Below are positions 13,091-28,860 of a stretch of 37,614 nucleotides of DNA, piece by piece (position 1 is the stretch's first letter; the number at the start of each line of letters is the position of its first letter). The position numbers were made by a program, and so were the translations under genes. The notes under the pieces were generated by a model that ran no database searches, was not told where the DNA came from, and saw only the letters and a program-made list of their open reading frames with translations. The stretch comes from a virus, in IMG/VR virus record IMGVR_UViG_3300034103_000711, positions 1 to 37,614 of that record; one strand, written 5' to 3'.

Positions 13091-13110
13091 ATTTAATATG
13101 TTTTGTTTTA

Positions 13111-13139: not shown

Positions 13140-13171
13140 GGCAAAAAATAAAAGATTTTCGTTATAAGAGT
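13140..13171 (+). promoter_or_regulatory. Recurring promoter-like motif, copy 3
   Basis: GGCAAAAAATAAAAGATTTT then CGTTATAAGAGT and ATG. It directly follows the terminator, which supports a promoter that restarts transcription for the portal unit. Confidence 0.55.
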
Positions 13172-15590: not shown

Positions 15591-15691
15591 AAGAGGTTAA
15601 AAACAGTAAATTATTAGAAGTTTATTTAAAAAAACAAGAGCAAGATGATAGGCAAATTGAACATACAAGCGTTAAGGGGCGACACATTTAA
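15563..15691 (+). CDS. Small charged hypothetical protein
   Basis: A 42-residue frame starting MANEKKPNVKEVKNSKLLEV, rich in Lys, Glu and Gln. It overlaps the previous gene by 28 bases and the next by 47. It fills the gap in the packed block and has a normal start, but the long overlaps make it uncertain. Confidence 0.45.
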   Translation: MANEKKPNVKEVKNSKLLEVYLKKQEQDDRQIEHTSVKGRHI

Positions 15692-16999: not shown

Positions 17000-17011
17000 A
17001 AATAAAAAAAT

Positions 17012-17557
17012 ATGAAATCATTTATAACACCAAATTACATTTTTACTCCAGGAGCTTCTGGAGTTGGAACTATCAATTTATTAGATATTCAAAAATTTGA
17101 TATTAAAAGATTGGTAGCAATTATCAATATCAATAGCAATGTCATTATTTACAATGTAGCAAATCCATTAACAGGATTTACAGCGGTTAATAATACCATT
17201 ATTACATTAGATTATAACACAAGTGCAATGTCATCAAATGATTTATTACAAGTCATTTATGATAATGATGATGCTATAACTAATAATGAGCTAATTCAAG
17301 CTATACAAGCTATGAGAATGGGTATTCAATCGCTTAATAGAACTATTGGATTAGCGCAAGTAAACCCTGTAAATGGTAATTTGTTTGTTGATGGGTCAAG
17401 GGTAACTCAACCCGTATCGGGCAGTTTATCAACAGTATCAACAGTAACGACAGTAACTAATATGGCGCAATTAGGAGGGCAAAATGCTAACTCAGCAATT
17501 ATATCACTTGAAAGAAACACAGCAGATAATTTAAGAAGAAATATAAACGTAACATAA
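17012..17557 (+). CDS. Tail structural protein
   Basis: A 181-residue protein starting MKSFITPNYIFTPGASGVGT. The first 100 residues form a beta module (INLLDIQKFDIKRLVAIININ, ITLDYNTSAMSSNDLLQVIY) common in phage appendage proteins. The C-terminal part has helical then low-complexity Ser/Thr-Val sequence. It lies between two fibre-type genes. Function is inferred. Confidence 0.65.
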   Translation: MKSFITPNYIFTPGASGVGTINLLDIQKFDIKRLVAIININSNVIIYNVANPLTGFTAVNNTIITLDYNTSAMSSNDLLQVIYDNDDAITNNELIQAIQAMRMGIQSLNRTIGLAQVNPVNGNLFVDGSRVTQPVSGSLSTVSTVTTVTNMAQLGGQNANSAIISLERNTADNLRRNINVT

Positions 17558-17564
17558 CATAACA

Positions 17565-18995
17565 ATGGCAACAACAAACGGGAATAGAAAATTATTAGAT
17601 TTAAAAAGATGGGAGCAATTAACACCAGCACCAGTAGCAACAGTAGCAGGTTCATTTATTGCTTCATCAAGACACTTTAGACAGCAACAGTTGTATGTTC
17701 AATCCCTAACGGTTGCATATCTTTACAGTCCTTTAGAGGATGGGTGGATTCAACTTCCATCTCCATCACTTGCGGGTACATTAGCAGCAGGTGCATCAGG
17801 TGTAGCAAGTTCATTTGGAGCAGGGACAGCAGTAGCTTCATCATTAACTGCAACGGGTGGAACGACATCTACTATTATAACCAATCAGACTTTGGCTCGT
17901 TCTTTAGCAGGTTATTCTGTTCATATCTTATCAGGACCAAACGCAGGTGTAACGCTTCCAATAGTTAGTAATACAGTAGGAGCAAACGCAACTATCACAG
18001 TAGCAACACAAGCATCAGCATTTACATCGTCAACAGTTTACAGACTTTGTACGCCTGTTTGGTATGTTGTAGGTTCGGGAACAATCGCATCGGGTTCATT
18101 TAAAAAATATGACTTTGCTACAAACACTTGGGTAACTCTTCAACATACAGGATTACCAGCTTCACTTGCATCAGACGGAAAATTGATAAGCACACCAAGT
18201 TGGTTAAATACCGATTATAAAGCGTTTGCAACAGGAACAGCAACGGCAGGAGGCGCGTCAACCCTTACTAATATCGGTAAAGCGTGGGCAACAAATCAAT
18301 GGGCAAATAGTCAAGTTAGAATTGTATCGGGGACTGGCGCAGGACAAATTAGAACTATTGCATCAAACACAGCAACGGTTCTAACAACAAGTGTAGCTTG
18401 GACTACTCAGCCCGATGTAACGTCTGTTTATTCTATCGAGGGTAATGATGATTTTCTTTATTATATGGGTAACAACGCAGTTACAATGTATCGCTATTCA
18501 ATTTCAGCTAATACTTGGAGTACATTAGCACCAACGTCGGCAAGAGCAGGCGCACCTATCGCTGGTATGTCAGCTCATTGGGTATATGGTGTTACAAATA
18601 GTGCGTGGACTGCCGAAAATGCAATCATTAACGGACAAAGGATTTACTCATTTAGAGGGAATGGTGCGGTGCTTGATTACTACGATATTGCTTTGAACAC
18701 TTGGGTGTCGGGGGTGCTTTATTCTCCCGCAGTTGAGGCATTTGGTACAGGAAGTAAGTACACTTACATAGGTGATAAATTATACATACAAATCAACAAC
18801 AATAATCGTTGGTTTGAGTACGATATTGCTGGTCAAAATATGATGGGTTGGACAACAATGCCAGTCGTGCAAGGTGCTGGTGTAGTAGGTGATACCGCTT
18901 TTGATGCATGCTACTACGATGGAGCAACAGAAATACACTATGTGTATATGCTAATCAACTCATCTACACTTATGTACCGACAAATGGTAATCTAA
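17565..18995 (+). CDS. Kelch-like receptor-binding/tail appendage protein
   Basis: A 476-residue protein. Repeated beta-propeller-type blades with an NTW(V/S) turn are visible: YDFATNTWVTLQHTGLP, YSISANTWSTLAPTSARAG, YDIALNTWVSGVLYSPA and YDIAGQNMMGWTTMP. Between the early blades two ~65-residue modules have the same order (insert about 95-165 and about 220-280: SGPNAGVTLPI / SGTGAGQIRTI). This suggests a propeller with duplicated inserted domains for host recognition. It is the last appendage gene before the lysis group. Confidence 0.7.
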   Translation: MATTNGNRKLLDLKRWEQLTPAPVATVAGSFIASSRHFRQQQLYVQSLTVAYLYSPLEDGWIQLPSPSLAGTLAAGASGVASSFGAGTAVASSLTATGGTTSTIITNQTLARSLAGYSVHILSGPNAGVTLPIVSNTVGANATITVATQASAFTSSTVYRLCTPVWYVVGSGTIASGSFKKYDFATNTWVTLQHTGLPASLASDGKLISTPSWLNTDYKAFATGTATAGGASTLTNIGKAWATNQWANSQVRIVSGTGAGQIRTIASNTATVLTTSVAWTTQPDVTSVYSIEGNDDFLYYMGNNAVTMYRYSISANTWSTLAPTSARAGAPIAGMSAHWVYGVTNSAWTAENAIINGQRIYSFRGNGAVLDYYDIALNTWVSGVLYSPAVEAFGTGSKYTYIGDKLYIQINNNNRWFEYDIAGQNMMGWTTMPVVQGAGVVGDTAFDACYYDGATEIHYVYMLINSSTLMYRQMVI

Positions 18996-19012
18996 CTTTA
19001 ATACTTAAAAAA

Positions 19013-19171
19013 ATGATACAGAAATTAATTAAGCAATGCGAAACAAGGTTAAACTACCTTAAAAGTTATCGAAATTCTAATATTGAGTTGGGGAACGATG
19101 AAATAGTAAACAAGGTAGATACTGAAATATTGGAAATAGAAGAAACTATTGAAAAATTGAAAACTATTTAA
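19013..19171 (+). CDS. Small coiled-coil hypothetical protein
   Basis: A 52-residue, helical, charged protein starting MIQKLIKQCETRLNYLKSYR. The frame is open from 18908, but the start at 19013 follows an A-rich leader, avoids a long overlap, and yields a compact coiled coil ending ETIEKLKTI. It sits 1 base before the membrane protein gene. Function is unknown. Confidence 0.65.
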   Translation: MIQKLIKQCETRLNYLKSYRNSNIELGNDEIVNKVDTEILEIEETIEKLKTI

Positions 19172-19172
19172 T

Positions 19173-19532
19173 ATGAAAACAATCTACCATCAATTTAGAA
19201 ACGTAATGCACGTAGTGGGGTTTTTAACACTTGCATACAAAGGTTTAGGATTACTTGACTTGGACTTATGGACTTGGCAAAAGATAGTCTTAGGATTTGT
19301 ACTAAGTGCGATTGGCTTCGGATTAGGTCACGGTTACGAGGGATTGCGTAATATATTTTTTGGTGACAAAGTAAGCAATTCAGACGGTAATTTATCTTGG
19401 ATTGGATTTACTGCTGGGACTTTCTTAATTTTATTTATTCCAAACATAATTTTTATAAATACTCATTTATTCTATTTCTGTTTGAGTTTGTTTGTTTTGG
19501 ATAATGTTTACGCTTTTAAAAATAAAAAATAA
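19173..19532 (+). CDS. Holin-like membrane protein
   Basis: A 119-residue protein with three or four hydrophobic segments: about 8-27, 36-52 (IVLGFVLSAIGFGLGHGY), 75-93 (GFTAGTFLILFIPNIIFI) and 95-112. Its position just before the coiled-coil membrane protein and the amidase suits a holin, but no family signature is seen. Stop and start overlap by one base with the next gene. Confidence 0.55.
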   Translation: MKTIYHQFRNVMHVVGFLTLAYKGLGLLDLDLWTWQKIVLGFVLSAIGFGLGHGYEGLRNIFFGDKVSNSDGNLSWIGFTAGTFLILFIPNIIFINTHLFYFCLSLFVLDNVYAFKNKK

Positions 19533-20041
19533 TGGGTTGGTTGTTAGAAAATTGGGTTGCGCTTGTAAGTACTTTATCTATTCCAATAGCTTGGATATTT
19601 GGTGGAAAACAAGCTAAGAAAGTAGAATTGAAAAAAGGAGAAATTGAAGTACAAAAAGACCAAATTGATTTAGCAAAAAATACTCGTGAATTTCTTTTAT
19701 TAAAAGAAGCTGATTTTAAAACCGAAAGAGAAGAATATAGAAAAGAATTAGAAACTATTAAAAATGAAGTAAAGTCTGAAAGGCAGTATTATCGGGAAAA
19801 AGTAAACGGATTAAGAAACTCCATTGATAATCTTCAAAACAAGTTTGACCAAATTTCTGTAAATTATGCTTTAGAAGTAGAGAGGTCAGACTCTTGGATG
19901 AAAAAATATTTTGAAATTGAAAAAGAAAATCAACAACTAAAAGAGCAAATTTCAAAAGTTGAAAAAAGATGTAAAGATTTAGAAGTACATATTAAAAAAT
20001 TAGAAAAAGAATTGATTGAATATAAAAACTTGAATAAATGA
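19532..20041 (+). CDS. Single-span membrane protein with coiled coil
   Basis: A 169-residue protein. Residues 5-24 (LENWVALVSTLSIPIAWIFG) are one membrane segment; the remainder is a long Lys/Glu-rich coiled coil. It may belong to the lysis group or be a holin partner; no known family is recognised. It overlaps the amidase start by 4 bases. Confidence 0.6.
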   Translation: MGWLLENWVALVSTLSIPIAWIFGGKQAKKVELKKGEIEVQKDQIDLAKNTREFLLLKEADFKTEREEYRKELETIKNEVKSERQYYREKVNGLRNSIDNLQNKFDQISVNYALEVERSDSWMKKYFEIEKENQQLKEQISKVEKRCKDLEVHIKKLEKELIEYKNLNK

Positions 20042-20448
20042 GAAAAATAGATTACATAGTTATTCACTGCACGGCTACTCAGCCAAACGCAACGAAACAA
20101 TCAATATTAAATCATTGGAAAAATACGCTTAAATGGAAAACAGTAGGGTATCATAGATTAATAGATGCAAATGGTGTTATTCACGAATTAGAGAAATACG
20201 AAAACCCTACAAACGGAGTAAAAGGTTTTAATGCTAATAGCATTCATTTCAGTTATATTGGTGGTGTAGATGCTTTGGGAAAAACAAAAGACACAAGAAC
20301 TATCAAACAAAAAGAAAGTCTTGAACAGCTAATAAAACAAGCTAAACAACAATTTCCAAATGCTATTGTTCAAGGTCATAAAGATTTTAAAGGTGTTGTA
20401 AAAGCTTGTCCTTCATTTGATGCTAAATTTGAATATAAAAATTTATAA
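20038..20448 (+). CDS. N-acetylmuramoyl-L-alanine amidase (endolysin)
   Basis: A 136-residue amidase_2/PGRP-type enzyme that cuts the bond between muramic acid and the peptide in peptidoglycan. It starts MRKIDYIVIHCTAT; likely zinc ligands are His10 in VIHCTAT, His114 in QGHKDF and Cys124 in KACPSFD. YHRLIDANGVIHE is the conserved core. There is no signal peptide, so it relies on a holin. It fits the T7 lysozyme-like size. Confidence 0.92.
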   Translation: MRKIDYIVIHCTATQPNATKQSILNHWKNTLKWKTVGYHRLIDANGVIHELEKYENPTNGVKGFNANSIHFSYIGGVDALGKTKDTRTIKQKESLEQLIKQAKQQFPNAIVQGHKDFKGVVKACPSFDAKFEYKNL

Positions 20449-20453
20449 AATCC

Positions 20454-20475
20454 TTTCCCTTATCAATGAGGGAAA
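20454..20475 (+). other. Perfect 7-bp hairpin before spanin gene
   Basis: TTTCCCT and AGGGAAA pair around an 8-base loop. No T run follows, so it looks like an RNA structure or stability element between amidase and spanin rather than a terminator. Confidence 0.45.
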
Positions 20476-20519
20476 CAAATGTTAAAAAATTTAAAACCAA
20501 CACATTAAAGTACTTAAAA

Positions 20520-21014
20520 ATGACAACAACACCAAACAGAAACGATAACATCATTATTATATTTATTATAGCAATAATTATAGTAGTTTGTTTAACTTCT
20601 TGCTCCAGCCGAAAAGTAAACAAATCAGAAACTAAAATAGAAACAGTTTCAGAAACTACCAAAGTAGATACTTCCAAGACTGTTACAAAAGTTGATATGA
20701 ATACTAAAATAGTTGACAGTTCAACAAGTAATGAAATCGAGTACATTCCAATCGATAACACTTTACCTTTTATAGTAAATGGTCAAACGTTCAAAAACGT
20801 TAAAATAAAGCACTCAAAAAAGAAAAACAATATAATTGTTGACAAAACTAATAAAGTGTCGCAAATCGAACAGAAATACGTTAAACAAGGCACTAAAGAT
20901 AAAACTTCTAAAACAGTTGAGGTGAAAGTAACGGAAAAGCAATCTTTCAATTTTTTGTGGTTGCTATTGCTTTTAATTCCAGCTTACTTTTACTTTAGAA
21001 AATACTTTGTTTAA
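20520..21014 (+). CDS. One-piece spanin (u-spanin)-like lipoprotein
   Basis: A 164-residue protein with a hydrophobic N-terminal segment (10-26) and a lipobox ending LTSC (Cys28), a Lys/Thr/Val-rich periplasmic part, and a C-terminal membrane span (FLWLLLLLIPAYFYF). An outer-membrane lipid anchor plus an inner-membrane anchor in one chain is the layout of unimolecular spanins such as T1 gp11, which fuse the two membranes after lysis. An upstream ATG (20466) gives 18 extra basic residues; 20520 gives a better signal peptide. It lies directly after the amidase. Confidence 0.75.
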   Translation: MTTTPNRNDNIIIIFIIAIIIVVCLTSCSSRKVNKSETKIETVSETTKVDTSKTVTKVDMNTKIVDSSTSNEIEYIPIDNTLPFIVNGQTFKNVKIKHSKKKNNIIVDKTNKVSQIEQKYVKQGTKDKTSKTVEVKVTEKQSFNFLWLLLLLIPAYFYFRKYFV

Positions 21015-21207
21015 AACTATCTTTCAAATCTTGGATTGTATATTTTTTTCTTTTGTCTTGGATTAAAATATTTTCCTTTGCCAACTTTTCATTAACAGCA
21101 TCTCTTATAAACTTACTTACATTTACCTTATTTTTTCTAAGCTGATTTAACTGTTGTTTCTGAAAATCATCAGTTGTAAATGTTTGTATTTTGTCATATA
21201 ATTTCAT
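20995..21207 (-). CDS. Small ribbon-helix-helix-like protein (left flank of cassette array)
   Basis: A 70-residue protein: MKLYDKIQTFTTDDFQKQQL, then KVNVSKFIRDAVNEKLAKE. The NVSKFIRDAVNEKL helix is what one expects of Arc/CopG-type ribbon-helix-helix DNA-binding proteins. It lies just left of the last cassette and is the final gene of the leftward block, ending 20 bases inside the spanin gene. A second RHH-like gene (28876-29016) borders the other side of the array. It may be a repressor; targets are unknown. Confidence 0.65.
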   Translation of the reverse strand: MKLYDKIQTFTTDDFQKQQLNQLRKNKVNVSKFIRDAVNEKLAKENILIQDKRKKYTIQDLKDSFKQSIF

Positions 21208-21250
21208 AGTTCACAAAGGAAAATATTATTTTTTATGCGTATATTACGTA

Positions 21251-21259
21251 GTTAGTGGC
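21251..21259 (-). other. Truncated attC core at the left end of the array
   Basis: GTTAGTGGC matches, inverted, the GCCACTAAC at 21511, so the C18 cassette is bounded on both sides. The arms and loop expected to its left are missing. The C18 stop codon TAA lies inside this core. Confidence 0.75.
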
Positions 21260-21563
21260 TATTTTTGGAAAACTTAATAGTATCGCCAATTTTTAAACCT
21301 AAATCACCGCCTATTCTACAAGAAAAACTTTTGTTTGTAGAATCAACTACGACTATATTAATCTTTGCGTAACTCATTGAGCCAGCTATTTCGCTTATAC
21401 CAATAACAACAGTTTCTCCTTTGCATTGGTTAAACATAGCTGAAAATGTTTTGTATTCCCCGCTATCATAAGTTAAATTTTCTTTTGTATCGCACCCGAC
21501 AAATAAAACAGCCACTAACATCAGCTTGGCAAGATTGCGGGTTAATTTTGTGTTTGAAATCAT
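21252..21563 (-). CDS. Cassette C18: small lipoprotein
   Basis: A 103-residue protein with a type II signal peptide: MISNTKLTRNLAKLMLVAVL then VGC (lipobox Cys24). The mature part is small and beta-rich (TVVIGISEIAGSMSYAKINI, SCRIGGDLGLKIGDTIKF). No family is recognised. The start codon lies inside the attC of the neighbouring cassette, and the junction GTTA falls between Met15 and Leu16, at the start of the hydrophobic core, so the signal peptide is composed across the recombination point. The stop codon TAA is part of the truncated end core. Confidence 0.8.
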   Translation of the reverse strand: MISNTKLTRNLAKLMLVAVLFVGCDTKENLTYDSGEYKTFSAMFNQCKGETVVIGISEIAGSMSYAKINIVVVDSTNKSFSCRIGGDLGLKIGDTIKFSKNSH

Positions 21564-21649
21564 TCTTTTTAAATTTAAAGTTAATTTTGTGTTTGCGTGT
21601 TCAGTCTTAAATCGTCCGCAACCTCGCCAAGCTGACGGACGTTATAACC
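21511..21649 (-). other. attC site of cassette C17
   Basis: Arms CAGCTTGGCAAGATTGCGGG (left) and CCGCAACCTCGCCAAGCTG (right) pair with two mismatches. Cores are GCCACTAAC and GTTATAACC. The loop holds the C18 start codon and two copies of GTTAATTTTGTGTTTG. Confidence 0.88.
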
Positions 21650-21653
21650 AATG

Positions 21654-21869
21654 CTATGCGACACATACATCAACAACAATTGCGGTTTTAGTATGGTAAA
21701 CAACAAATCTATATTCAGTTTGTGTTCCTTTCTTAATCCACAAAGCACAGTTATAAATACCTTCTTTTCGGTCTTTCATTAAAGTTTCTTCGTACTCGAT
21801 AGCTTTTGAAACGGCTTCTGTTCTTAAAAAACCGCAATGTTTGTCTGTTTTGATAATTATTTTTTTCAT
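21654..21869 (-). CDS. Cassette C17: hypothetical protein
   Basis: A 71-residue protein starting MKKIIIKTDKHCGFLRTEAV, with a helical middle and C-terminal beta strands (YRFVVYHTKTAIVVDVCV). No family is recognised. It has its own start 32 bases inside the cassette, after an AT-rich leader. The cassette is bounded by GTTATAACC and its inverse GGTTATAAC. Confidence 0.75.
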   Translation of the reverse strand: MKKIIIKTDKHCGFLRTEAVSKAIEYEETLMKDRKEGIYNCALWIKKGTQTEYRFVVYHTKTAIVVDVCVA

Positions 21870-21900
21870 CTTAATTTATTTAGTTTGTAAAAAAGCACTG

Positions 21901-21987
21901 GTTATAACAGCACATAAGCAAAAGCCCAAATCCCTCGCTAAAGCCAACGCTATTTGTGCCTTCGCTTATCTGCAAAACGTTATCACT
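21901..21987 (-). other. attC site of cassette C16 (short form)
   Basis: Cores GGTTATAAC and GTTATCAC enclose arms CACATAAGC and GCTTATCTG. There is no long AT-rich loop. It is nearly identical to the site at 22747-22835 over about 80 bases. Confidence 0.88.
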
Positions 21988-22228
21988 CAGCTTGGGCAAC
22001 TAACTTAAAATCGAGTAAAATACATTGTTTTAGCATTTCAAAATATTTTCCATTAATACGGTCATCCCCCAATATGTATCTAACATTTTCTGCTCTTTTC
22101 ACCAGTTCATCAATCGTTGTTTCACTGTGATATAAAAAAGGAATAGCAGTTTCATAAATACCTTCGTTCAATCTATTTACGTCAACATATCTACTTGCGT
22201 AGGTTAGAATTTTAAAATTTGTTTGCAT
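21983..22228 (-). CDS. Cassette C16: hypothetical protein
   Basis: An 81-residue, largely helical protein starting MQTNFKILTYASRYVDVNRL. It has ETTIDELVKRAENVRYILGDD in the middle and LKQCILLDFKL near the end. No family is recognised. It starts 22 bases inside its cassette, and the TGA stop abuts the attC core (GTGATAAC). Confidence 0.75.
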   Translation of the reverse strand: MQTNFKILTYASRYVDVNRLNEGIYETAIPFLYHSETTIDELVKRAENVRYILGDDRINGKYFEMLKQCILLDFKLVAQAE

Positions 22229-22249
22229 TGTTTTCAGAATTAAGCCGAA

Positions 22250-22385
22250 GTGATAACAGCAGGTAATCGCTATTGTGGCTTCGGGGTTGATTTATAATTT
22301 ATTTTGTACTTTTGTGTTTATTGCTTAACCGAAAGTTATGGAGTACTAAACCACAACAGCCGTTTACCTGCAAAACGTTATCGGC
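22250..22385 (-). other. attC site of cassette C15 (long form)
   Basis: Arms GCAGGTAATCGCTATTGTGG and CCACAACAGCCGTTTACCTG pair with bulges; cores are GTGATAAC and GTTATCGGC. Its left 60 bases match 28801-28860 at 52 of 60 positions. Confidence 0.88.
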
Positions 22386-22389
22386 AACC

Positions 22390-22701
22390 TTATCGAACGA
22401 CATCTCCGTATGCCTTTTTGATAGCATTATTAAGTTCATTTTCCATAAGAATATATCCGTGCTTACCTTCTGCAATAAGTTGAGCGTTTAACTTGTGTAT
22501 ATCTCTTAAAGCGTTTTCACAAGCAATAAGTAATTCAGGTGCAGCGGCTATTAAATCAGCATCCGACCTTTCGTAAACGTGGTCTGTTACACATTCGCCA
22601 TCGTCTGACCAATGTATTTCAAAACCTTTTACGCCATTAGTTTCTCGGTTATCTACTTTCCAACCGATTGTACCATCTTTAAATTTCCCTTTTGTAATCA
22701 T
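22390..22701 (-). CDS. Cassette C15: phage-type protein with DLIAAAPELL motif
   Basis: A 103-residue protein. It opens MITKGKFKDGTIGWKVDN, then NGVKGFEIHWSDDGECVTDH. Near residue 48 comes DADLIAAAPELLIACENAL, a helix typical of many small Bacteroidota and other phage proteins. Its biochemical role is unknown. It has its own start 46 bases into the cassette, behind a leader with TTAACAATTAAA. Confidence 0.82.
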   Translation of the reverse strand: MITKGKFKDGTIGWKVDNRETNGVKGFEIHWSDDGECVTDHVYERSDADLIAAAPELLIACENALRDIHKLNAQLIAEGKHGYILMENELNNAIKKAYGDVVR

Positions 22702-22746
22702 TTTTTTATTTGTTTAATTGTTAATAATTCGTTTGAAAGAAGGGCA

Positions 22747-22835
22747 GCCGATAACAGCACATAAGCAAAAGCCCAAATTCCCTCGCACAAGCCAACGCTA
22801 TTTGCGCCTTCGCTTATCTGCAAAACGTTAGTGGC
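22747..22835 (-). other. attC site of cassette C14 (short form)
   Basis: Cores GCCGATAAC and GTTAGTGGC with the same CACATAAGC/GCTTATCTG arms and nearly the same loop as 21901-21987. Confidence 0.88.
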
Positions 22836-23046
22836 AATCTTTAACAGCACCTTGCTCTAAATCTTTTAAAAAAGAAGCTGTAACTGTAACTTCTTTTTCT
22901 TTCCACTCGTTATCGTAATCTAAAAATAAACATTTTACCCTTTTACCATATTTAGCAGCTACTTCTTGTATAGTAAGACTGCCACTAACATCGGTTTTAT
23001 TCAATGCCTTTGCTTGGTTATTATCGGGAGTGTTTTCGCTATTCAT
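22828..23046 (-). CDS. Cassette C14: hypothetical protein starting in attC
   Basis: A 72-residue protein: leader MNSENTPDNNQAKALNKTD, then VSGSLTIQEVAAKYGKRVKC, which looks like a small DNA- or RNA-binding-type helix, then KEKEVTVTASFLKDLEQGAV. No family is assigned. The first 19 codons lie in the attC of the upstream cassette C13; the junction is at Val20 (GTT AGT GGC). The TAA stop is part of its own core (CACTAAC). Confidence 0.75.
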   Translation of the reverse strand: MNSENTPDNNQAKALNKTDVSGSLTIQEVAAKYGKRVKCLFLDYDNEWKEKEVTVTASFLKDLEQGAVKDCH

Positions 23047-23119
23047 AAGTTTTGTGTTTATTTGTTAATTTCAGTTTTGAATTACGGCACTGAAATAAAG
23101 CCGACGGACGTTATGTGAG
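22981..23119 (-). other. attC site of cassette C13 (long form)
   Basis: Arms TCGGTTTTATTCAATGCC and GGCACTGAAATAAAGCCGA pair; cores GCCACTAAC and GTTATGTGAG. The loop encodes the start of the C14 protein. Confidence 0.88.
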
Positions 23120-23122
23120 ATG

Positions 23123-23353
23123 CTAAGAAACGCCTGTATATTGAGATTTTAATTCATAATAAAACTTGCCCTTGTCAATATCTTGACCATTTGACTTTAA
23201 AGACAATTCTCTGATATGTTCATTCGCAAACCAAATTTGAGTTAATGGATATTGCTTTTTATTGTTTGCAATCTCATTCCAAAGATTGATTAAGCCTTGC
23301 AAATCTTTTGTTGCATCAGCTTCTTTTAGTATTTCTGTTATTGTTCTTGACAT
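23123..23353 (-). CDS. Cassette C13: phage-type hypothetical protein
   Basis: A 76-residue helical protein starting MSRTITEILKEADATKDLQG, then LINLWNEIANNKKQYPLTQIW and FANEHIRELSLKSNGQD. Such small proteins recur in Bacteroidota phages, but no function is known. It starts 33 bases inside its own cassette. The boundary tags GTTATGTGAGATGCT and AGCACCTCACATAAC are inverted with one difference. Confidence 0.78.
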   Translation of the reverse strand: MSRTITEILKEADATKDLQGLINLWNEIANNKKQYPLTQIWFANEHIRELSLKSNGQDIDKGKFYYELKSQYTGVS

Positions 23354-23385
23354 ATTATTGTTTTTAAATTGTTTGAAAAAAGCAC

Positions 23386-23520
23386 CTCACATAACAGCAT
23401 ATTTATGAAATGGCGGGTTTAGTGCTAAATTGATACTTCTTGCATCAAATAAAGTTTTGTACTAATTGAAAAAATCGTTTTCAAAATCCGCCACTTCATA
23501 AATATGCAAAACGTTAGCGG
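23386..23520 (-). other. attC site of cassette C12 (long form)
   Basis: Arms GCATATTTATGAAATGGCGG and CCGCCACTTCATAAATATGC pair almost throughout; cores CTCACATAAC and GTTAGCGG. Confidence 0.88.
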
Positions 23521-23802
23521 TCATTGCAGACCAACCAACAAATTAGCAATCATTGTTTCACGGACAATTCCATCAGATTCAGAAATTATCATTTGTTGCC
23601 TCCGTTCAATTTCAGCAATCAATGTATCTCTTGACCATTTTGCCCCAACCTGCAACGGCTCAAACCATCTACTATCTTCTACGTCATGATACTTTTCAAA
23701 GGCATATTCCTCAATATCCTTATCGGAAAGCAACGAACCGCTAACAGCACCTACCAAAAAGGCGGGGTTCTGTGTTTCATTGATATTTTCGTTTTCTAAC
23801 AT
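23521..23802 (-). CDS. Cassette C12: hypothetical protein starting in attC
   Basis: A 93-residue protein: MLENENINETQNPAFLVGA leader, then VSGSLLSDKDIEEYAFEKYH, then KWSRDTLIAEIERRQQMIIS, a helix-rich body. The SDKDIEEYAFEKY pattern is common in small phage proteins. The recombination junction is in Val20 (GCT GTT AGC). TGA follows LLVGLQ, just before its own attC. Confidence 0.78.
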   Translation of the reverse strand: MLENENINETQNPAFLVGAVSGSLLSDKDIEEYAFEKYHDVEDSRWFEPLQVGAKWSRDTLIAEIERRQQMIISESDGIVRETMIANLLVGLQ

Positions 23803-23873
23803 AATTTTATTTTTAAATTGATAATTTCGTTTTCTAAATCCCGCCCTTCTGGTAGCTGAAAAACGTTAGTGGC
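23737..23873 (-). other. attC site of cassette C11 (long form)
   Basis: Arms GCACCTACCAAAAAGGCGGG and CCCGCCCTTCTGGTAGCTG pair; cores ACCGCTAAC and GTTAGTGGC. The C12 start codon lies in the loop. Confidence 0.88.
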
Positions 23874-24262
23874 TATGTTGACAAACTCTCGGTTAAAGAG
23901 CCATCAATATCTAATCGACCACTATTCCAATAGTTGCCTAAACCAAACCACCATCCGTTTTTTGTTCTTGCAAATACTCCTTTTGGCTCATTTTTAAATT
24001 CAGTGCTTGTGAATTTAATAAAATAATCAGTTTTTTCAAATAACCAATCGCTTGGCAATCCTTCTTCTTCCCATAATTTTAACAATTCATTATTAGCTTT
24101 TTCAAATGGTATAATCTCGTCAATTGTAACTTGATACATTCTACTTTCTCTAATTTTTCCATCGTCAAAGCAATTATAAGTTTTTCCAATTTCGGGTAAT
24201 CCTGAAACACAGCCACTAACATCGGCTTGGCAAGATTGGGGGTTTTGTTCTAAATTGTTCAT
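23873..24262 (-). CDS. Cassette C11: hypothetical protein starting in attC
   Basis: A 129-residue protein. After the leader MNNLEQNPQSCQAD the body begins VSGCVSGLPEIGKTYNCFDD, followed by RMYQVTIDEIIPF, a helical LLKLWEEEGLPSDWLF and aromatic GWWFGLGNYWNSGRLDIDG near the end. IGKTYNCFDDGKI... proteins are found in Bacteroidota phages and genomes; function is unknown. The junction is in Val15 (GAT GTT AGT). Confidence 0.8.
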   Translation of the reverse strand: MNNLEQNPQSCQADVSGCVSGLPEIGKTYNCFDDGKIRESRMYQVTIDEIIPFEKANNELLKLWEEEGLPSDWLFEKTDYFIKFTSTEFKNEPKGVFARTKNGWWFGLGNYWNSGRLDIDGSLTESLST

Positions 24263-24347
24263 TTATTCTATTTATTAAAGTTTGTAATTAATTTGAGCGA
24301 TTGTGCTTTTAAGTCCCCAACCTCGCCAAGCCGAGAACCGTTGTGCG
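24212..24347 (-). other. attC site of cassette C10 (long form)
   Basis: Arms ATCGGCTTGGCAAGATTGGG and CCCCAACCTCGCCAAGCCGA pair; cores GCCACTAAC and GTTGTGCG. The core is GTTG rather than GTTA, shared with the C6 site. Confidence 0.88.
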
Positions 24348-24352
24348 AGATG

Positions 24353-24679
24353 CTAGTATAAGTCTTCAGAAAATAATCTATTACCTCTGATTTGTGAAAT
24401 ATCTTTAACTTGATTTTCACGTAAAGCAATAATTAATGCTTCTTCACGAGTAACAAAATTATTTTTATTGGTTAAAAATCCTTGAATGCTTTCACCACTT
24501 TCTATTTCCCCATCATTCCAACCAGTAATTGAACATTTAGTGTAAATACATTGTGCATGTCGATAGCCGCAAAAAACCAATCCTCTATCGCAATTAGCTG
24601 GTAAAACATTGTAAGGAAATACTTTTTGCAGAATTATATTAGGATACCAAACTGCTGAACATATTATTTTTTCATTCAT
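24353..24679 (-). CDS. Cassette C10: phage-type protein with SEDLY end
   Basis: A 108-residue Cys-rich protein starting MNEKIICSAVWYPN, with GLVFCGYRHAQCIYTKCSI, then GFLTNKNNFVTREEALIIAL and RLFSEDLY at the end. FLT..N.FV.REEA..IA..RLFSEDLY is a widespread phage protein family of unknown function, here carried as a cassette. It has its own start 39 bases into the cassette after a TTAACAATTAAA leader. Confidence 0.85.
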   Translation of the reverse strand: MNEKIICSAVWYPNIILQKVFPYNVLPANCDRGLVFCGYRHAQCIYTKCSITGWNDGEIESGESIQGFLTNKNNFVTREEALIIALRENQVKDISQIRGNRLFSEDLY

Positions 24680-24717
24680 AATATAAAAATTTAATTGTTA
24701 ATATTTAAAAGCACCAT

Positions 24718-24852
24718 CGCACAACAGCGGTTACACGCTATTGCCACTCTTGGCTTGATTTAATGTTTGTTTTGTATTTGTTTTATTCATTGCTTAACCA
24801 AAACTTAATTTTGTATATTTGGCAAAATCGTGTAGCCACAAAACGTTATAAC
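24718..24852 (-). other. attC site of cassette C9 (long form)
   Basis: Arms GCGGTTACACGCTATTGCCA and TGGCAAAATCGTGTAGCCAC pair; cores CGCACAAC and GTTATAAC. The loop contains a 19-codon mini-ORF. Confidence 0.88.
24731..24790 (-). CDS. attC-embedded leader mini-ORF
   Basis: A 19-codon frame MNKTNTKQTLNQAKSGNSV inside the attC loop, ending TAA before the recombination point. It shares the TK-TLN-A--GN pattern with the attC-encoded N-terminus of cassette C2. It may be a decayed or non-fused leader; translation is untested. Confidence 0.4.
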   Translation of the reverse strand: MNKTNTKQTLNQAKSGNSV

Positions 24853-24857
24853 TCATT

Positions 24858-25169
24858 TTACCGAGTGCTAACAGATAGATTATTTCCTGTAATTACAATT
24901 TGTTCTTTTTTAGTTGAATTATATTTGTGCTTAAACAATAATCTTTCTGCATAATTAATTAATGCATTTAAATAATTTTTCCTATTGTACTCTTCGCTTG
25001 TCATATCGAATAGATTAATAAAAGATAATTTAAAACTTTCGCTTTCCCAATCTTCTTTTTTATTTTTTAAATTTACCATCAAAGTATTATAAGATAATTT
25101 TGATTTTTCTATAACACCATCAATAAAATTTTTAGCTCTTATTTCGTGTTCTTGTGCTTTTGAAATCAT
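24858..25169 (-). CDS. Cassette C9: hypothetical protein
   Basis: A 103-residue, highly helical charged protein starting MISKAQEHEIRAKNFIDGVI, with MTSEEYNRKNYLNALINYAE in the C-terminal half. No family is recognised. It starts 12 bases inside its cassette. Boundary tags GTTATAACTC and GAGTTATAAC are perfectly inverted. Confidence 0.75.
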   Translation of the reverse strand: MISKAQEHEIRAKNFIDGVIEKSKLSYNTLMVNLKNKKEDWESESFKLSFINLFDMTSEEYNRKNYLNALINYAERLLFKHKYNSTKKEQIVITGNNLSVSTR

Positions 25170-25180
25170 AATAAAAACGA

Positions 25181-25317
25181 GTTATAACAGCAATTACACG
25201 CTATTGCTACATTGTGATTAATTTAGTGATTGTTTTGTACCTTTCAATTCCGTGTTAAACTGAAAGATGGCTTTGTGTTTTTACGCAACAGACGTGTAGT
25301 TGCGAAACGTTACCGGC
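25181..25317 (-). other. attC site of cassette C8 (long form)
   Basis: Arms GCAATTACACGCTATTGC and GCAACAGACGTGTAGTTGC pair; cores GTTATAAC and GTTACCGGC. The loop includes AACACAAA on the coding strand but no start codon in use. Confidence 0.86.
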
Positions 25318-26017
25318 AAGCGAACCGACCCCACTGCAATGCGATAGCCTCTGCGACACCCTTAAATGTCTTTGACCGGAGTTTTGCTCGTTCTGGTCCA
25401 GGTGGCAAGTAGTGAAGTCTTTGTGCTTCGTTTTTCGGTAATCGTTTCCATTCATCTTTTACGTCTTTTGTTGGTTTCAGTTTTGGCAATCCTTTCAGCC
25501 AAAAACAAGTTGCCTTGCTTTCAGTATGCCCAAACTGATAAGGTTGTATGCACTGGTCGTATTTTCTGCCTATCAATTCCACTGCATATTTGTGTGGTAT
25601 AGGGTTTTCAATAGCTATCAATGGTATTGGAGCATTTAATAAGGCTTTGAAAAATTCAGCACCTTGTTTTAAGTTTTTCCACCTTTCTTCATTCCTGCTT
25701 CCGTCTTTATTCCACAACCAGCACACACCACTATTTGTAAGATAGGTGCAAGTCGGGTGTCCTATCATCATATCCCAGCCGTCATTTAATACTTTCAAAA
25801 CATCGCCTTTTATGTGCCATTCAGGGTGTCCGCCGCTGCAATCTTGCAAGTCGCAGCTATAAGCATCAAAACCAAGTTTACGCAGTTCTATTGTTGTGGC
25901 CTGACTTTCCTCACAAGCAACAAGAACACGAACGCCAGCCGGTAACACTGCATTGGCAATATTGCCGCTGACGTGCATATCCTGGTCATTTGTAAATAAA
26001 TCAAACTGTGTACTCAT
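25310..26017 (-). CDS. Cassette C8: cytosine-C5 DNA methyltransferase-like protein
   Basis: A 235-residue protein. RVLVACEESQATTIELRKLG (30-49) is a SAM-binding start, DAYSCDLQD (51-59) gives the acidic ligand, WDMMIGHPTCTYL (81-93) stands where C5 methyltransferases have the catalytic PC loop, and IAIENP (134-139) matches the ENV-type motif. The PC loop here is GHPTCT, so activity is uncertain; related phage proteins are common. The first 24 codons come from the attC of C7, and the junction is between Val24 and Leu25 (GTG TTA). The gene is clearly richer in G+C than its neighbours, suggesting recent arrival. Confidence 0.85.
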   Translation of the reverse strand: MSTQFDLFTNDQDMHVSGNIANAVLPAGVRVLVACEESQATTIELRKLGFDAYSCDLQDCSGGHPEWHIKGDVLKVLNDGWDMMIGHPTCTYLTNSGVCWLWNKDGSRNEERWKNLKQGAEFFKALLNAPIPLIAIENPIPHKYAVELIGRKYDQCIQPYQFGHTESKATCFWLKGLPKLKPTKDVKDEWKRLPKNEAQRLHYLPPGPERAKLRSKTFKGVAEAIALQWGRFACR

Positions 26018-26072
26018 ACTGAACTTTAGTTTTTCAAAATCGGCAACATCGCCAATGCTTTTACGTTACCAG
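25938..26072 (-). other. attC site of cassette C7 (long form)
   Basis: Arms GCATTGGCAATATTGCCG and CGGCAACATCGCCAATGC pair; cores GCCGGTAAC and GTTACCAG. It encodes the first 24 residues of the methyltransferase-like protein. Confidence 0.88.
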
Positions 26073-26077
26073 TAATG

Positions 26078-26371
26078 TTATTTAGCAACATCGCTAAAAA
26101 AACTCGGACAAATAACTTGTATCATTTCTTTAGCATCATTTTGCATTTTAGTTCCTTTCACGGAAATCCATAAAGCATTTGACAAGTAAGACAAATAATC
26201 AACGCTACCTGTTGAAAGCGGACTATTTAAACTTTGAAATTCGTGATTAAGATTAAACATCTTTCCTTCTTTTGTCTTATTAAACTTCAATAACCAGTTT
26301 TCGTGAGAAACACTACTGGTAACATCGGTTTTGGGTTCAGCTTTTTCGCTTGGGTTAATTTCTTTAGTCAT
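26078..26371 (-). CDS. Cassette C7: hypothetical protein starting in attC
   Basis: A 97-residue protein: leader MTKEINPSEKAEPKTD from the attC of C6, then VTSSVSHENWLLKFNKTKEG and STGSVDYLSYLSNALWISV, ending FFSDVAK. It is helix-rich with no recognised family. The junction is in Val17 (GAT GTT ACC). An AACACAAAATG start context is visible. Confidence 0.75.
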   Translation of the reverse strand: MTKEINPSEKAEPKTDVTSSVSHENWLLKFNKTKEGKMFNLNHEFQSLNSPLSTGSVDYLSYLSNALWISVKGTKMQNDAKEMIQVICPSFFSDVAK

Positions 26372-26454
26372 TTTGTGTTTGTTTTTTAATTGTTAATCCG
26401 AAAATTGGTTTTGTACTTTCACAAGCCGAAACCAAAGCCGAGAACCGTTGTGCG
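26316..26454 (-). other. attC site of cassette C6 (long form)
   Basis: Arms ATCGGTTTTGGGTTCAGCTT and AAGCCGAAACCAAAGCCGA pair with a bulge; cores CTGGTAAC and GTTGTGCG. The right end is identical to that of the C10 site over more than 20 bases. Confidence 0.88.
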
Positions 26455-26492
26455 AGATGCTAGGAAACCGCATCAGAAACGACTAATTCTTA

Positions 26493-27008
26493 TCAAAAAA
26501 TAGCACCACATTTGCAGTATTTCTTTTCTGATTGTATTGAATTTTGCATCCAACTATCTCCATTGCAAGTAGGGCAATTTAAACATGAAACAGTGTTTTG
26601 TTGTAAAGTTTCATTTACAATATCAGAAACAACTAATTCTTCTCCAGTTAGAGCAAAATAAAGGTTTTGAAGTTGGTGAACGTATTTAATATGACCGTTT
26701 TTAAAAGCATAATACTTACCATCTTGAACCAAATCGCATTCAGCACTATTCCAATTAAAAAATCCTATTTTTGCCCTTGTTGGTATTTTAATTTCTGCCC
26801 AATCACCATTTTTTTTAAACCCAAACTTAACCAGCCATTCCTCTGTTAGTGGGATTGGATTAAAAATTCTTAATGCAAAACAGCCAAAGGTATCTGTTTT
26901 ATCATTATTAAAAATCCTAATTGTACTGTCTGAATGAATAGATGAAACTTCGCATATTTCATTATTTTTATCTATTAAATTCCCAATTCTTAATTCTTTT
27001 GCAGTCAT
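26493..27008 (-). CDS. Cassette C6: phage-type protein with Cys-rich tail
   Basis: A 171-residue protein. MTAKELRIGNLIDKNNEICE at the start, NPIPLTEEWLVKFGFKK in the middle and KYVHQLQNLYFALTGEEL near 120-137 define a family common in Bacteroidota phages and prophages. The C-terminal 35 residues add a Cys cluster (CLNCPTCNG, KYCKCGAIF) that could bind zinc. Function is unknown. It has its own start after a leader with ATATTAACTTATAAAT. Confidence 0.88.
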   Translation of the reverse strand: MTAKELRIGNLIDKNNEICEVSSIHSDSTIRIFNNDKTDTFGCFALRIFNPIPLTEEWLVKFGFKKNGDWAEIKIPTRAKIGFFNWNSAECDLVQDGKYYAFKNGHIKYVHQLQNLYFALTGEELVVSDIVNETLQQNTVSCLNCPTCNGDSWMQNSIQSEKKYCKCGAIF

Positions 27009-27045
27009 AATTTTTTATTTATAAGTTAATATTTAAAAGCACCAT

Positions 27046-27187
27046 CGCACAACAGCCGTTTGCATCAATGGCTTTGCTTGCGTAATGTTTGCAATGGCAC
27101 AGGTTTTTAATTTAAAGTTTTGTTTATATTTGTAATCGTTTGTGTTTTAGGCACGCCACTAATGCAAGCGGGCGAAACGTTATAAGC
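27046..27187 (-). other. attC site of cassette C5 (long form)
   Basis: Arms GCCGTTTGCATCAATGGC and GCCACTAATGCAAGCGGGC pair with mismatches; cores CGCACAAC and GTTATAAGC. The coding-strand loop carries AACACAAA but no used start codon. Confidence 0.85.
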
Positions 27188-27191
27188 AACC

Positions 27192-27380
27192 CTAAAAACC
27201 GCCTTCTTCGACAAATTCCTGAACTGACTTATCTGTATAACTTGCTAAATCATTTACGACATTTAACAGGTGGTTAATCATATCCTCCATTTCTTTTGGA
27301 CTTGATTTAAAAATAGTTGTTTCAATTTCATCAACCTTTAATTCTACAAAGGCGTGTGTTCTTCTTACTTTAATTTCCAT
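27192..27380 (-). CDS. Cassette C5: hypothetical protein
   Basis: A 62-residue protein starting MEIKVRRTHAFVELKVDEIE, with a helical MEDMINHLLNVVNDLASYTD and acidic end VEEGGF. No family is recognised. It has its own start 43 bases inside the cassette, preceded by TTAACAATTAAA. Confidence 0.78.
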   Translation of the reverse strand: MEIKVRRTHAFVELKVDEIETTIFKSSPKEMEDMINHLLNVVNDLASYTDKSVQEFVEEGGF

Positions 27381-27422
27381 TTTGTTATTTATTTAATTGT
27401 TAATAATCATTCAATAAGGGCA

Positions 27423-27498
27423 GCTTATAACAGCACATACACGCTATTTTCCCTCCCTCAATCCAACGCTCACAGCGTGTATCTGCAAAACGTTAGGC
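27423..27498 (-). other. attC site of cassette C4 (short form)
   Basis: The shortest site, 76 bases. Arms GCACATACACGCT and AGCGTGTATCTGC pair; cores GCTTATAAC and GTTAGGC. Confidence 0.88.
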
Positions 27499-27702
27499 AC
27501 AATAAAAAGCATTATAAAGTTCATCTGCTAAATTCAATCCGTTTTTTAAAGCATTATATGTTACATCTGCAACATCGTCAGGGTCGCAACCCTTAGCTAC
27601 ATAAATTGCACCTATTAAAGCAATCGGTAAAGGCTTTTTACTGATGCCTAACAGCACATTTGCGTCAGTGGCGGTTTCGTGTTTCAAATTATGTTCTGTC
27701 AT
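27493..27702 (-). CDS. Cassette C4: hypothetical protein starting in attC
   Basis: A 69-residue protein: leader MTEHNLKHETATDANVL from the attC of C3, then LGISKKPLPIALIGAIYVAK and GCDPDDVADVTYNALKNGL, with a hydrophobic segment and acidic helix. The frame is open further upstream (to 27831), but that would overlap the stop of C3; ATG 27702 matches the other cassettes. The junction lies between Leu17 and Leu18 (CTG TTA). TAA lies in its own core. Confidence 0.75.
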   Translation of the reverse strand: MTEHNLKHETATDANVLLGISKKPLPIALIGAIYVAKGCDPDDVADVTYNALKNGLNLADELYNAFYCA

Positions 27703-27778
27703 ATCATTAAGTTTAGTGTTTAAAATCAACTGTGGTGGTTCAATGCGCCACCGAACGCAAATCTGCAAAACGTTAGCA
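27646..27778 (-). other. attC site of cassette C3 (long form)
   Basis: Arms GCACATTTGCGTCAGTGGCG and GCGCCACCGAACGCAAATCT pair; cores GCCTAAC and GTTAGCA. It holds the C4 start codon. Confidence 0.88.
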
Positions 27779-27805
27779 AACAGCTTAGGACTTAGATTGA
27801 AATAA

Positions 27806-28222
27806 TTAAGGTTTTTCGTAAATGTTGCCAATTATTTCTAAATATGGCATTTCTTGATATAATTGACAATTAAAATGCTCATTATCATTAATAATAAAAG
27901 AAGCTGTTTTTTTATGAAACTTAACTACACCCATTTTTCCATAATTAGTTTTTACAATATCGCCTTCATAAATTTCTTTACCATTTTTATCAATTAATCC
28001 AGTAAATTGCATAACTTGAAAATTTCTACAAGCAAACAAATCGTTTATAGGTTCGCTTTCAAAAAAGCAAAATCTATCTCCATAAAGCATTTCCATTTCA
28101 CAAATATCTTCTTCATAGTTAAGTTCGCCAAAATTGCCCCAAAACCTAAATTTTAAAAGCCGATTTGCTAACAGCGGTTTCACAAGATTGTTGCTTTCCG
28201 CATTTTTTGAAAGTTCAGTCAT
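27806..28222 (-). CDS. Cassette C3: YopX family protein starting in attC
   Basis: A 138-residue protein of the YopX phage family: LKFRFWGNFG after the leader, QVMQFTGLIDKNGKEIYEGD (74-93), GKMGVVKFHKK and a terminal LEIIGNIYEKP are its classic elements. YopX proteins are common phage genes of unknown biochemical role. The leader MTELSKNAESNNLVKPL is encoded by the attC of C2; the junction is between Leu17 and Leu18 (CTG TTA). Confidence 0.9.
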   Translation of the reverse strand: MTELSKNAESNNLVKPLLANRLLKFRFWGNFGELNYEEDICEMEMLYGDRFCFFESEPINDLFACRNFQVMQFTGLIDKNGKEIYEGDIVKTNYGKMGVVKFHKKTASFIINDNEHFNCQLYQEMPYLEIIGNIYEKP

Positions 28223-28300
28223 AATTTTATAGTTTAGTTATTATTTATTAAGTTTGTTTTTAAATCGGCAACAACCTCGTGAAGCCACATACGTTATATA
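28164..28300 (-). other. attC site of cassette C2 (long form)
   Basis: Arms GCGGTTTCACAAGATTGTTG and CAACAACCTCGTGAAGCCAC pair; cores TTTGCTAAC and GTTATATA. The loop holds the start of the YopX protein. Confidence 0.88.
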
Positions 28301-28527
28301 ATAGCATACAACCTGTCGTTGCAACAACCATTTAAACAAGAAATACCACTTCCACCATTATCATATTTAACATAGATATTATAGATATTTTCTATTTCTG
28401 TTATCGTTCCTTTATCGCCATCTTTATCAATAACTTTCTGTCCTACAAAAATGCCATCACATAACAGTGGTTTTGACTTATTGCCGTTTTCGGCTTCATT
28501 TAATGTTGGTTTTGTGTCTTTAAGCAT
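28294..28527 (-). CDS. Cassette C2: small hypothetical protein starting in attC
   Basis: A 77-residue protein. Leader MLKDTKPTLNEAENGNKSKPL comes from the attC of the tRNA cassette, then LCDGIFVGQKVIDKDGDKG and a beta-rich SH3-like body (TITEIENIYNIYVKY), ending with CLNGCCNDRLYAII. A GTG start at 28581 would add 18 residues; ATG 28527 follows AAAACT and matches the other leaders. The junction is CTG TTA. TAA is part of its own core (ATATAAC). Confidence 0.72.
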   Translation of the reverse strand: MLKDTKPTLNEAENGNKSKPLLCDGIFVGQKVIDKDGDKGTITEIENIYNIYVKYDNGGSGISCLNGCCNDRLYAII

Positions 28528-28612
28528 AGTTTTAAATTTAAGATTAGTTTGTACTTGGTTATTTAGTTTTTGGCTCGCCACAACGACGACAAAGCCGAAA
28601 ACCGTTATGGTT
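28453..28612 (-). other. attC site of tRNA cassette C1 (long form)
   Basis: Imperfect arms AGTGGTTTTGACTTATTGCC and GACGACAAAGCCGAAAACC; cores CACATAAC and GTTATGGTT. Pairing is weaker than in the other sites. Confidence 0.75.
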
Positions 28613-28621
28613 AATAATTTG

Positions 28622-28693
28622 TAGCGGGAGAAGGAATCGAACCTCCGACCTTTAGGAAATCAGCCTAACAAGCTACCTCTGCTCTATCCCGCA
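28622..28693 (-). tRNA. tRNA-Ile(GAU)-like, alone in cassette C1
   Basis: The minus strand folds as a full cloverleaf of 72 bases: acceptor TGCGGGA/TCCCGCT (first pair T-T mismatched), TA at 8-9, D stem GAGC/GCTT with AGAGGTA loop, anticodon stem TTAGG/CCTAA with loop CTGATTT, variable AGGTC, T arm GGAGG-TTCGATT-CCTTC and discriminator A. The anticodon is GAT. T at position 37 and the mismatched first pair are unusual. CCA is not encoded. It is bounded by GTTATGGTTA and TAACCATAAC, so it forms a complete cassette without an ORF. Confidence 0.8.
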
Positions 28694-28796
28694 ATTTATA
28701 AGATTCTATTTTAAGCGGAATCTTAAACGCTTTTTGAGTATTCTATTTTTTTACTTTTTAATTCGGCAACTTCTCCTTTCTTTTAAATATTACTAA

Positions 28797-28860
28797 CCAT
28801 AACAGCAGGTAATCGATATTGTGGCTTTTGGTTTGATTTATAATTAATTTTGAACTTGTA
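28797..28860 (-). other. Half attC at the right end of the array
   Basis: The core CCATAAC and the left arm plus loop match the left half of the C15 site (52 of 60 bases), but the right arm and right core are absent; the RHH-like gene follows. This marks the truncated upstream border of the array. Confidence 0.8.

Follow-up and report, generated by a model that had tools for sequence, protein, structure and literature searches.

The window analyzed here is the entire IMG/VR record IMGVR_UViG_3300034103_000711, a 37,614-bp viral contig, recorded as 'linear', from a phage of the Bacteroidota. Between positions 21251 and 28860 it contains a succession of 18 compact units on the minus strand, separated by structured repeats, i.e., 17 complete sites of the form TAAC(G)...GTTA on the same strand, 68–146 nt (mostly ~127 nt) in length. 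This locus very probably represents the array of cassettes belonging to an integron-like system of site-specific recombination, which circulates among the Bacteroidota and their phages. The complete AAC...GTT hairpins are located at 21516–21644, 21905–21982, 22254–22380, 22752–22830, 22986–23113 and 23392–23516 (S1–S6), at 23742–23868, 24217–24343, 24722–24848, 25185–25312, 25943–26068 and 26320–26450 (S7–S12) and at 27050–27182, 27428–27495, 27649–27775, 28169–28296 and 28462–28607 (S13–S17). The distal array end is formed by a truncated site at 28800–28860, a half-site 90% like S3, and the left end by a lone core at 21250–21254.

The consensus fold obtained from a MAFFT alignment of the 17 sites included 14 pairs, seven of them with compensatory double changes, and both AAC and GTT were invariant in all 17. 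The attC hallmarks tested (imperfect palindrome, AAC/GTT cores, spacers, L boxes and variable loop) were present in the 17 sites, and a mismatch in the fourth L-box pair recurred in 109 of 146 viral and 102 of 134 chromosomal sites. Several window sites matched the hairpin pattern TAACGTTTTGCAG...TGCTGTTA, mostly 126–127 nt long, of the Bacteroidota-type system, and several hairpins, folded as single sites, were far below shuffles in the energy comparison. At a threshold of 10.5, corresponding to a background of ~0.3 matches per 100 kb of shuffled DNA, the scanner recovered 16 of the 17 window sites; S17 scored 8.3, which was lower than a non-site at 21093 (8.9). With 17 clustered sites and no integrase in 37.6 kb, the array has the composition of a cluster of attC sites lacking integron integrases (CALIN), for which at least two clustered attC and no integron integrase are required.

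Cassette ends and the mobile unit

The two ends of an integron cassette meet in the circular form and are hence expected to match each other rather than the ends of neighboring cassettes. Over the seven positions following GTT, the within-cassette agreement in the 18 cassettes was 6.33 out of 7, against 2.65 for neighbors and 2.63 for all other pairings, and the observed sum of own-end matches was reached in none of 100,000 permutations. This own-end matching bore out the partition into 18 cassettes and 17 repeats that a first-pass annotation had proposed from the letters alone; its statement that each cassette carries one open reading frame (ORF) or a tRNA also held, with a tRNA-Ile in the last cassette.

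The position of the cut was obtained from breakpoints, i.e., the ends of alignments in arrays, which were counted at a core when lying within 15 bp of it, with a random expectation of 4.6% per core. The hairpin core facing away from its cassette body is designated core A and the other one core B. Of 347 breakpoints in related viral contigs, 156 fell at core A and 16 at core B (137 and 16 of 316, respectively, with the window family left out), clustering within 5 bp of core A and remaining at chance level at core B, while in Bacteroidota chromosomes the corresponding numbers were 251 and 66 of 671. The bias indicates that the mobile unit is the cassette body together with its attI-distal hairpin, cut at core A, and the asymmetry between the two cores speaks against homologous recombination inside the hairpins. 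The alternative assignment, in which ORFs start in the hairpin of the neighboring cassette, was dropped, since the breakpoints place each hairpin in the same unit as its ORF.

Cassette exchange between sibling phages

The sibling L002 was 99.92% identical to the window over 10736–21254 and diverged at the core. Of the cassettes, cut from core to core, it carried numbers 4, 7–10 and 12–14 at 100% identity; numbers 5, 6 and 11 were missing, with exact junctions, and 1–3 were replaced by other cassettes. The first cassette of L071 was the same as that of L002, and L072 had a different one. In L144, a member of the L072 lineage whose backbone was ~93% identical to the window, cassettes 1 (390/390 nt) and 3 (398/398 nt) were present in an order changed relative to the window. 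Cassettes more similar than the backbones carrying them directly attest to transfer. Gain, loss and reordering of whole cassettes in siblings, with breakpoints at the GTT cores, was the check named in the first-pass annotation; both features whose absence would have spoken against its reading, an attC-like fold and cassette-wise exchange, were found, and the cassettes moved as units between cores, as in integrons.

Two further types of matches were observed. A stretch of 401 bp inside the arrays was 99.75% identical between L177 (4264–4664), a contig of 362 kb, and L130 (8025–8425), a small viral contig, which suggests cassette exchange between very different phages. Matches of ~150–160 bp (L214:715–862 with L236:6469–6617, and L222:2834–2984 with L234:2857–3007) covered the hairpin and a leader of ~30 bp and then ended; the same hairpin-leader in front of different ORFs may hint at how new cassettes arise.

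The attI-like site

The proximal end of the array is formed by a fixed attI-like site at 21220–21254, which reads TAAC|TACGTAATATACGCA on the minus strand, with the recombination point G|TTA at 21251/21252. Homology of L002, L071, L072 and L144 to the window stopped exactly at this site, and three different first cassettes followed it. The flank common to the window and the siblings L002, L071 and L072 was TATGCGTATATTACGTAG|TTA. This fixed site, common to siblings up to 21254, occupies the place of attI in integrons; it is not a hairpin and has only TAAC in common with the array sites. Compared with TAAC|TCCCTAATATACGCA in L397, the attI beside a chromosomal recombinase, the window sequence TAAC|TACGTAATATACGCA matched at 14 of 18 positions, and other chromosomal and phage attI sites had a looser TAAC|TA.TATAT pattern in common. 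Just beyond the site lies a small minus-strand ORF (20995–21207) resembling a small DNA-binding or antitoxin protein, for which no Pfam match was found.

Polarity of the cassette genes

The same scanner, applied to viral and chromosomal contigs, revealed a difference in polarity: of the 83 viral contigs that offered a pair to measure, 77 had the hairpin 5' of the ORF, with five reverse cases and one tie, in contrast to 60 Bacteroidota chromosomal contigs, where it was 5' in two, 3' in 50 and tied in eight (77:5 vs 2:50 in untied contigs; Fisher 2e-28). The attI side of the chromosomal arrays was set independently by the gene of an IntI-like recombinase, which stood at the core-A end, i.e., on the attI side, at every one of the 15 loci that had an array as well as a recombinase; the chromosomal recombinase also adjoined sequences closing the last cassette. 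The host genes are thus read away from attI with attC at their 3' side, as in known integrons, whereas the phage ORFs, judging from the contigs compared, are read towards attI with attC 5' of the gene, which means that they would be out of reach of any Pc located at attI. The start of the ORF lay within its own hairpin in 112 of 251 viral and 27 of 146 chromosomal cassettes, and the viral arrays were denser, with a median spacing of 473 bp vs 832 bp in the chromosomes.

To the right of the window array, SSB and an Erf-like annealing protein are encoded. The array ORFs read with these replication genes, and the array is presumably transcribed together with them. A Bacteroidota promoter-like motif, TAnnTTTG, was seen in the hairpin loops (for example at 22290–22315 of the window) in 60 of 301 viral sites vs 14 in shuffles; it is antisense to the phage ORFs and thus sense for cassettes of the host type.

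Associated recombinases

A TIGR02249 search of the 37.6 kb record gave no match, and no recombinase was found in it or in nine further records of siblings or relatives, which upheld the first-pass observation that the window holds no integrase. In none of 19 array-bearing Bacteroidota genomes did a TIGR02249 match exceed the integron cut-off of 265 bits. The recombinases located beside arrays scored 145–219 bits, and the IntI controls from Vibrio and Shewanella, which aligned along the whole profile, reached 494 and 394 bits. The array-side recombinase aligned to profile positions 3–179 and 238–315, and the absent stretch (~180–237) corresponded, in a direct comparison with the Vibrio and Shewanella IntI, to the IntI additional domain, which was present in L497 and L498. 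The integrase with an IntI-specific domain expected of an integron was thus not found, and a domain-less IntI-like recombinase beside the array, characteristic of the Bacteroidota-type system, was absent from the window but present in hosts and other phages. The additional domain is described as needed for integron integrase activity by Messier and Roy, 2001 (cited in PMC9668308); with the domain regarded as necessary, array enzymes without it would be an informative exception.

The chromosomal array recombinases had N-terminal extensions of ~80–320 residues. In four of them (L364, L365, L369 and L372; ~590–610 aa) repeated 'ARWSxTxKCWYVDY' modules preceded the recombinase core, and the L364 extension matched no Pfam family. 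Many viral contigs, up to 170 and 362 kb in size, had a shorter relative (~270–300 residues) at the attI end of the array. Arrays together with an IntI-like recombinase, mostly at the attI end, were observed in L157/L423 (IMGVR_UViG_3300043411_001575, 170 kb), L177 (362 kb) and L153/L431, and further in L428, L430, L432, L438–L440 and L445; such contigs apparently represent complete phage-borne integrons. In the tree, Xer stood apart (100/100) from both IntI and the array recombinases, IntI formed its own branch, and most of the phage array recombinases fell into one clade (97/94). The single-sequence AlphaFold model of one phage recombinase was unusable, with a mean predicted local distance difference test score (pLDDT) of 35.

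Distribution of the hairpin family

The hairpin-bearing contigs were collected with one sequence pattern, and their counts therefore do not give prevalence. Related arrays were found with a model (R1) built from the window sites. The same hairpin family occurred in at least 119 viral and at least 119 genome contigs, nearly all of them Bacteroidota. Arrays with the same hairpins were present in distant relatives of the phage, both in L034, L036, L041, L049 and L069 (portal ~45–49% identical) and in L085, L099, L113, L116 and L122 (relatives of the window segment 29327–30166), indicating that the array habit is old in the group. A megablast search of window positions 1–25000 against annotated phages gave no match. 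In the Polaribacter phage P12002L (L415), an isolate whose attC sites were assayed by Qi et al., the scanner had matches at 32223 and 38879, where the covariance model remained below significance.

Gene content of the cassettes

All cassettes are on the minus strand and are given here from left to right, each with its hairpin. Cassettes 1 (21252–21641; lipoprotein-like ORF 21252–21563, S1) and 3 (21980–22377; ORF 21983–22228, S3) are the two whole units, of 390 and 398 nt, found 100% identical in L144; between them is cassette 2 (21642–21979; ORF 21654–21869, S2), with an own-end complementarity of 10/10. Cassette 4 (22378–22827; S4), whose ORF at 22390–22701 encodes a DLIAAAPELL protein (phrog_1273), is 100% identical in L002 and has cassette 7 as its neighbor there. 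Missing from L002 are cassettes 5 (22828–23110; ORF 22828–23046, starting within the hairpin S5), with exact core junctions, and 6 (23111–23513; ORF 23123–23353, S6). Identical at 100% in the same record are cassettes 7 (23514–23865; ORF 23521–23802, S7), 8 (23866–24340; ORF 23873–24262, S8), 9 (24341–24845; ORF 24353–24679, S9), 10 (24846–25309; ORF 24858–25169, S10) and 12 (26066–26447; ORF 26078–26371, S12). The last two are directly adjacent there, cassette 11 (25310–26065), which encodes a DNA methyltransferase (25310–26017, phrog_757) starting within its hairpin S11, being absent with exact core junctions. Cassettes 13 (26448–27179; ORF 26493–27008, phrog_10066, S13) and 14 (27180–27492; ORF 27192–27380, short hairpin S14) are 100% identical in L399, which forms the terminal part of the L002 record. 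They are followed by cassette 15 (27493–27772; ORF 27493–27701, S15), with an own-end run of 8, cassette 16 (27773–28293), encoding a YopX protein (27806–28222; PF09643, E 2.1e-18) with its start within the hairpin S16, and cassette 17 (28294–28604; ORF 28294–28536/28581 with a weak DUF4314 match, S17), with an own-end match of 8/10. Cassette 18 (28605–28860), with an own-end match of 10/10, combines a tRNA-Ile(GAT) gene at 28621–28693, detected by ARAGORN and Rfam, with the truncated distal hairpin (28800–28860).

Among the phage families initially named for the cassettes, YopX and the methyltransferase were recovered and DLIAAAPELL corresponded to a phrog_1273 match; for SEDLY, no Pfam family matched. 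The Rfam matches in the window were limited to the tRNA, whose gene (in the segment 28604–28803) forms its own cassette, the most distal one in the array. A scan of 98 viral and 77 chromosomal arrays located no tRNA between complete hairpins, a test which the window tRNA, being bounded by a truncated site, escapes.

Interpretation and alternative explanations

Comparison of the contigs argues strongly that the system is active. A mechanism built on the observed units, junctions, fixed site, polarity and recombinase association would operate as follows. Each cassette consists of a body with one attC-type hairpin at its side, which a tyrosine recombinase would fold on one strand, probably by a single-strand mechanism, and the outer core (CG|TTA on the plus strand) would be joined either to a second hairpin or, at 21251, to the attI-like site, allowing circular cassettes to be inserted, excised and reshuffled as whole units. 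The phage has kept attI and the array but does not encode the recombinase in this record, the simplest account of this being a supply in trans, most likely of a host chromosomal IntI-like recombinase or that of a recombinase-carrying co-infecting phage. The phage cassettes are built with the ORF towards attI and the hairpin, often containing the start codon, at the 5' side, and all array ORFs read with the replication-gene operon and would be transcribed from this early operon. The array-side recombinases presumably act on these arrays, judging from their position.

Several points weigh against this interpretation. The evidence is all comparative, and recombination itself was not observed. The association of recombinases with arrays is one of position, and the window record, classed as 'linear', may be incomplete, so that the missing recombinase is unproven for the whole phage, although the sibling records also had none. 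Hairpins S5, S9, S12 and S13 were near the shuffle mean when folded singly. Finally, the IMG/VR contigs are metagenome assemblies, in which repeats such as S2 and S4 can give rise to misjoins at precisely this kind of position; as a sole explanation, however, misjoining is countered by the agreement between different metagenomes (L002 with L071 and L072 with L144), by the non-repeat nature of the attI junction and by the statistics spanning many contigs.

The action of a canonical IntI with the additional domain, coming from a host integron, is unlikely. IntI1 does accept attC sites of several virulent phages, one of these sites belonging to P12002L, a phage of Bacteroidota (PMC9892861), but the 19 array-bearing genomes yielded no above-cut-off integrase, with the best matches lacking the domain, and neither the canonical attC of Vibrio and Shewanella nor P12002L matched the model of the present hairpins. 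Quite unlikely is cassette exchange by homologous recombination between similar hairpins without any site-specific recombinase, for which the Erf-like protein and SSB encoded nearby and the 95% identity between S2 and S4 across 80 bp would provide the means: breakpoints should then appear at both hairpin ends and not at core A only, three different cassettes join an attI-like site that shares with the hairpins nothing but TAAC, and the own-end complementarity is left unexplained. That the array is an inert remnant of a host chromosomal integron, captured once and merely inherited, is most unlikely. The recombinase is missing from the record and its siblings, and prophages with captured host integron pieces have been described (PMC9892861); yet the cassettes differ on 99.9% identical backbones and are 100% identical on 93% identical ones, their ORF polarity is opposite to that of host cassettes, and a DNA search of the array against 395 Bacteroidia genomes returned hairpin and tRNA-like matches only and no cassette body. 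That the hairpins are terminators, processing sites or promoters, i.e., transcription elements that multiplied through duplication, with the cassette look being secondary, is scarcely credible, since the excess of loop TAnnTTTG opposite the ORFs (60/301 vs 14/301 in shuffles) and the many ORFs beginning inside a hairpin, which would agree with it, leave the own-end complementarity, the attI-like site, the one-core junctions and the neighboring recombinase unexplained.

The integron-like cassette system therefore remains the preferred interpretation. The original assignment to an integron-type cassette cluster was right as to its kind but not as to its polarity, and it was incomplete in respect of the enzyme and the attI-like site (21230–21254). 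Membership in the IntI integrons is not established, because the associated recombinases lack the IntI-specific domain. With moderate confidence we propose that the Bacteroidota phages possess an integron class of their own, with a domain-less recombinase clade, its own attI and a private cassette pool with flipped genes, whereby expression would fit the phage operon, the host and phage pools would be functionally separate, and some phages, such as the present one, would use the system without encoding the enzyme. The phages seem to swap accessory genes as modules, which offers a concrete mechanism for the mosaicism of their accessory genes: whole genes are exchanged in cassette form at fixed positions, and cassettes can be identical across backbones differing by 7%. 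The flipped polarity would explain the possible expression of cassettes in a phage without Pc at attI and suggests that hosts and phages draw on gene pools of their own. More generally, the data suggest that an integron-like system is widespread in the Bacteroidota as well as in their phages; its recombinase, lacking a supposedly necessary domain, makes the role of this domain and the origin of integrons testable.

Comparison with known systems

Integrase-less cassette clusters in phages are already known: Qi et al. (2023; PMC9892861) reported 17 CALINs and a few integrons. One review names the Bacteroidota among the integron-bearing phyla without detail, and the phylum is not among the 11 taxa modeled in PMC8352920. 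A literature search, which left most subscription papers and preprints outside and is weak evidence to that extent, returned no report of reversed polarity, a domain-less recombinase or cassette shuffling, no account later or broader than Qi et al. (2023) and no Bacteroidota integrons of such kind.

The present array resembles the phage CALINs (PMC9892861), which include that of Polaribacter phage P12002L, in being an integrase-less attC cluster, as found there in virulent and temperate phages, and in having a methyltransferase cassette. In contrast to those small arrays (three attC in TJE1, with at least two required), it comprises 18 cassettes and is further distinguished by the attI-like site, the gain, loss and reordering in siblings, the reversed ORF polarity and relatives with their own recombinase. 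With the chromosomal integrons of Treponema (PMC3607928) the Bacteroidota chromosomal loci have in common a recombinase gene transcribed towards attI, in the same direction as the cassette ORFs; however, the recombinase here lacks the IntI-specific domain, and in the phages the orientation to the att sites is the opposite one for the recombinase as well as for the cassette ORFs. The XerA-type proteins (NF040815; PDB 4a8e and 5hxy) were the best sequence matches of the host recombinase among solved structures and have catalytic residues in common with it, but the array recombinases adjoin cassette arrays and fall on a branch separate from that of the Bacteroidota Xer proteins (100/100). The class 1 and Vibrio integrons (IntI1, IntIA) have the same circular cassettes, AAC/GTT attC hairpins, insertion at a fixed attI and proximal turnover, while their attC is located 3' of the ORF instead of 5', and their IntI contains the additional domain that is absent here.

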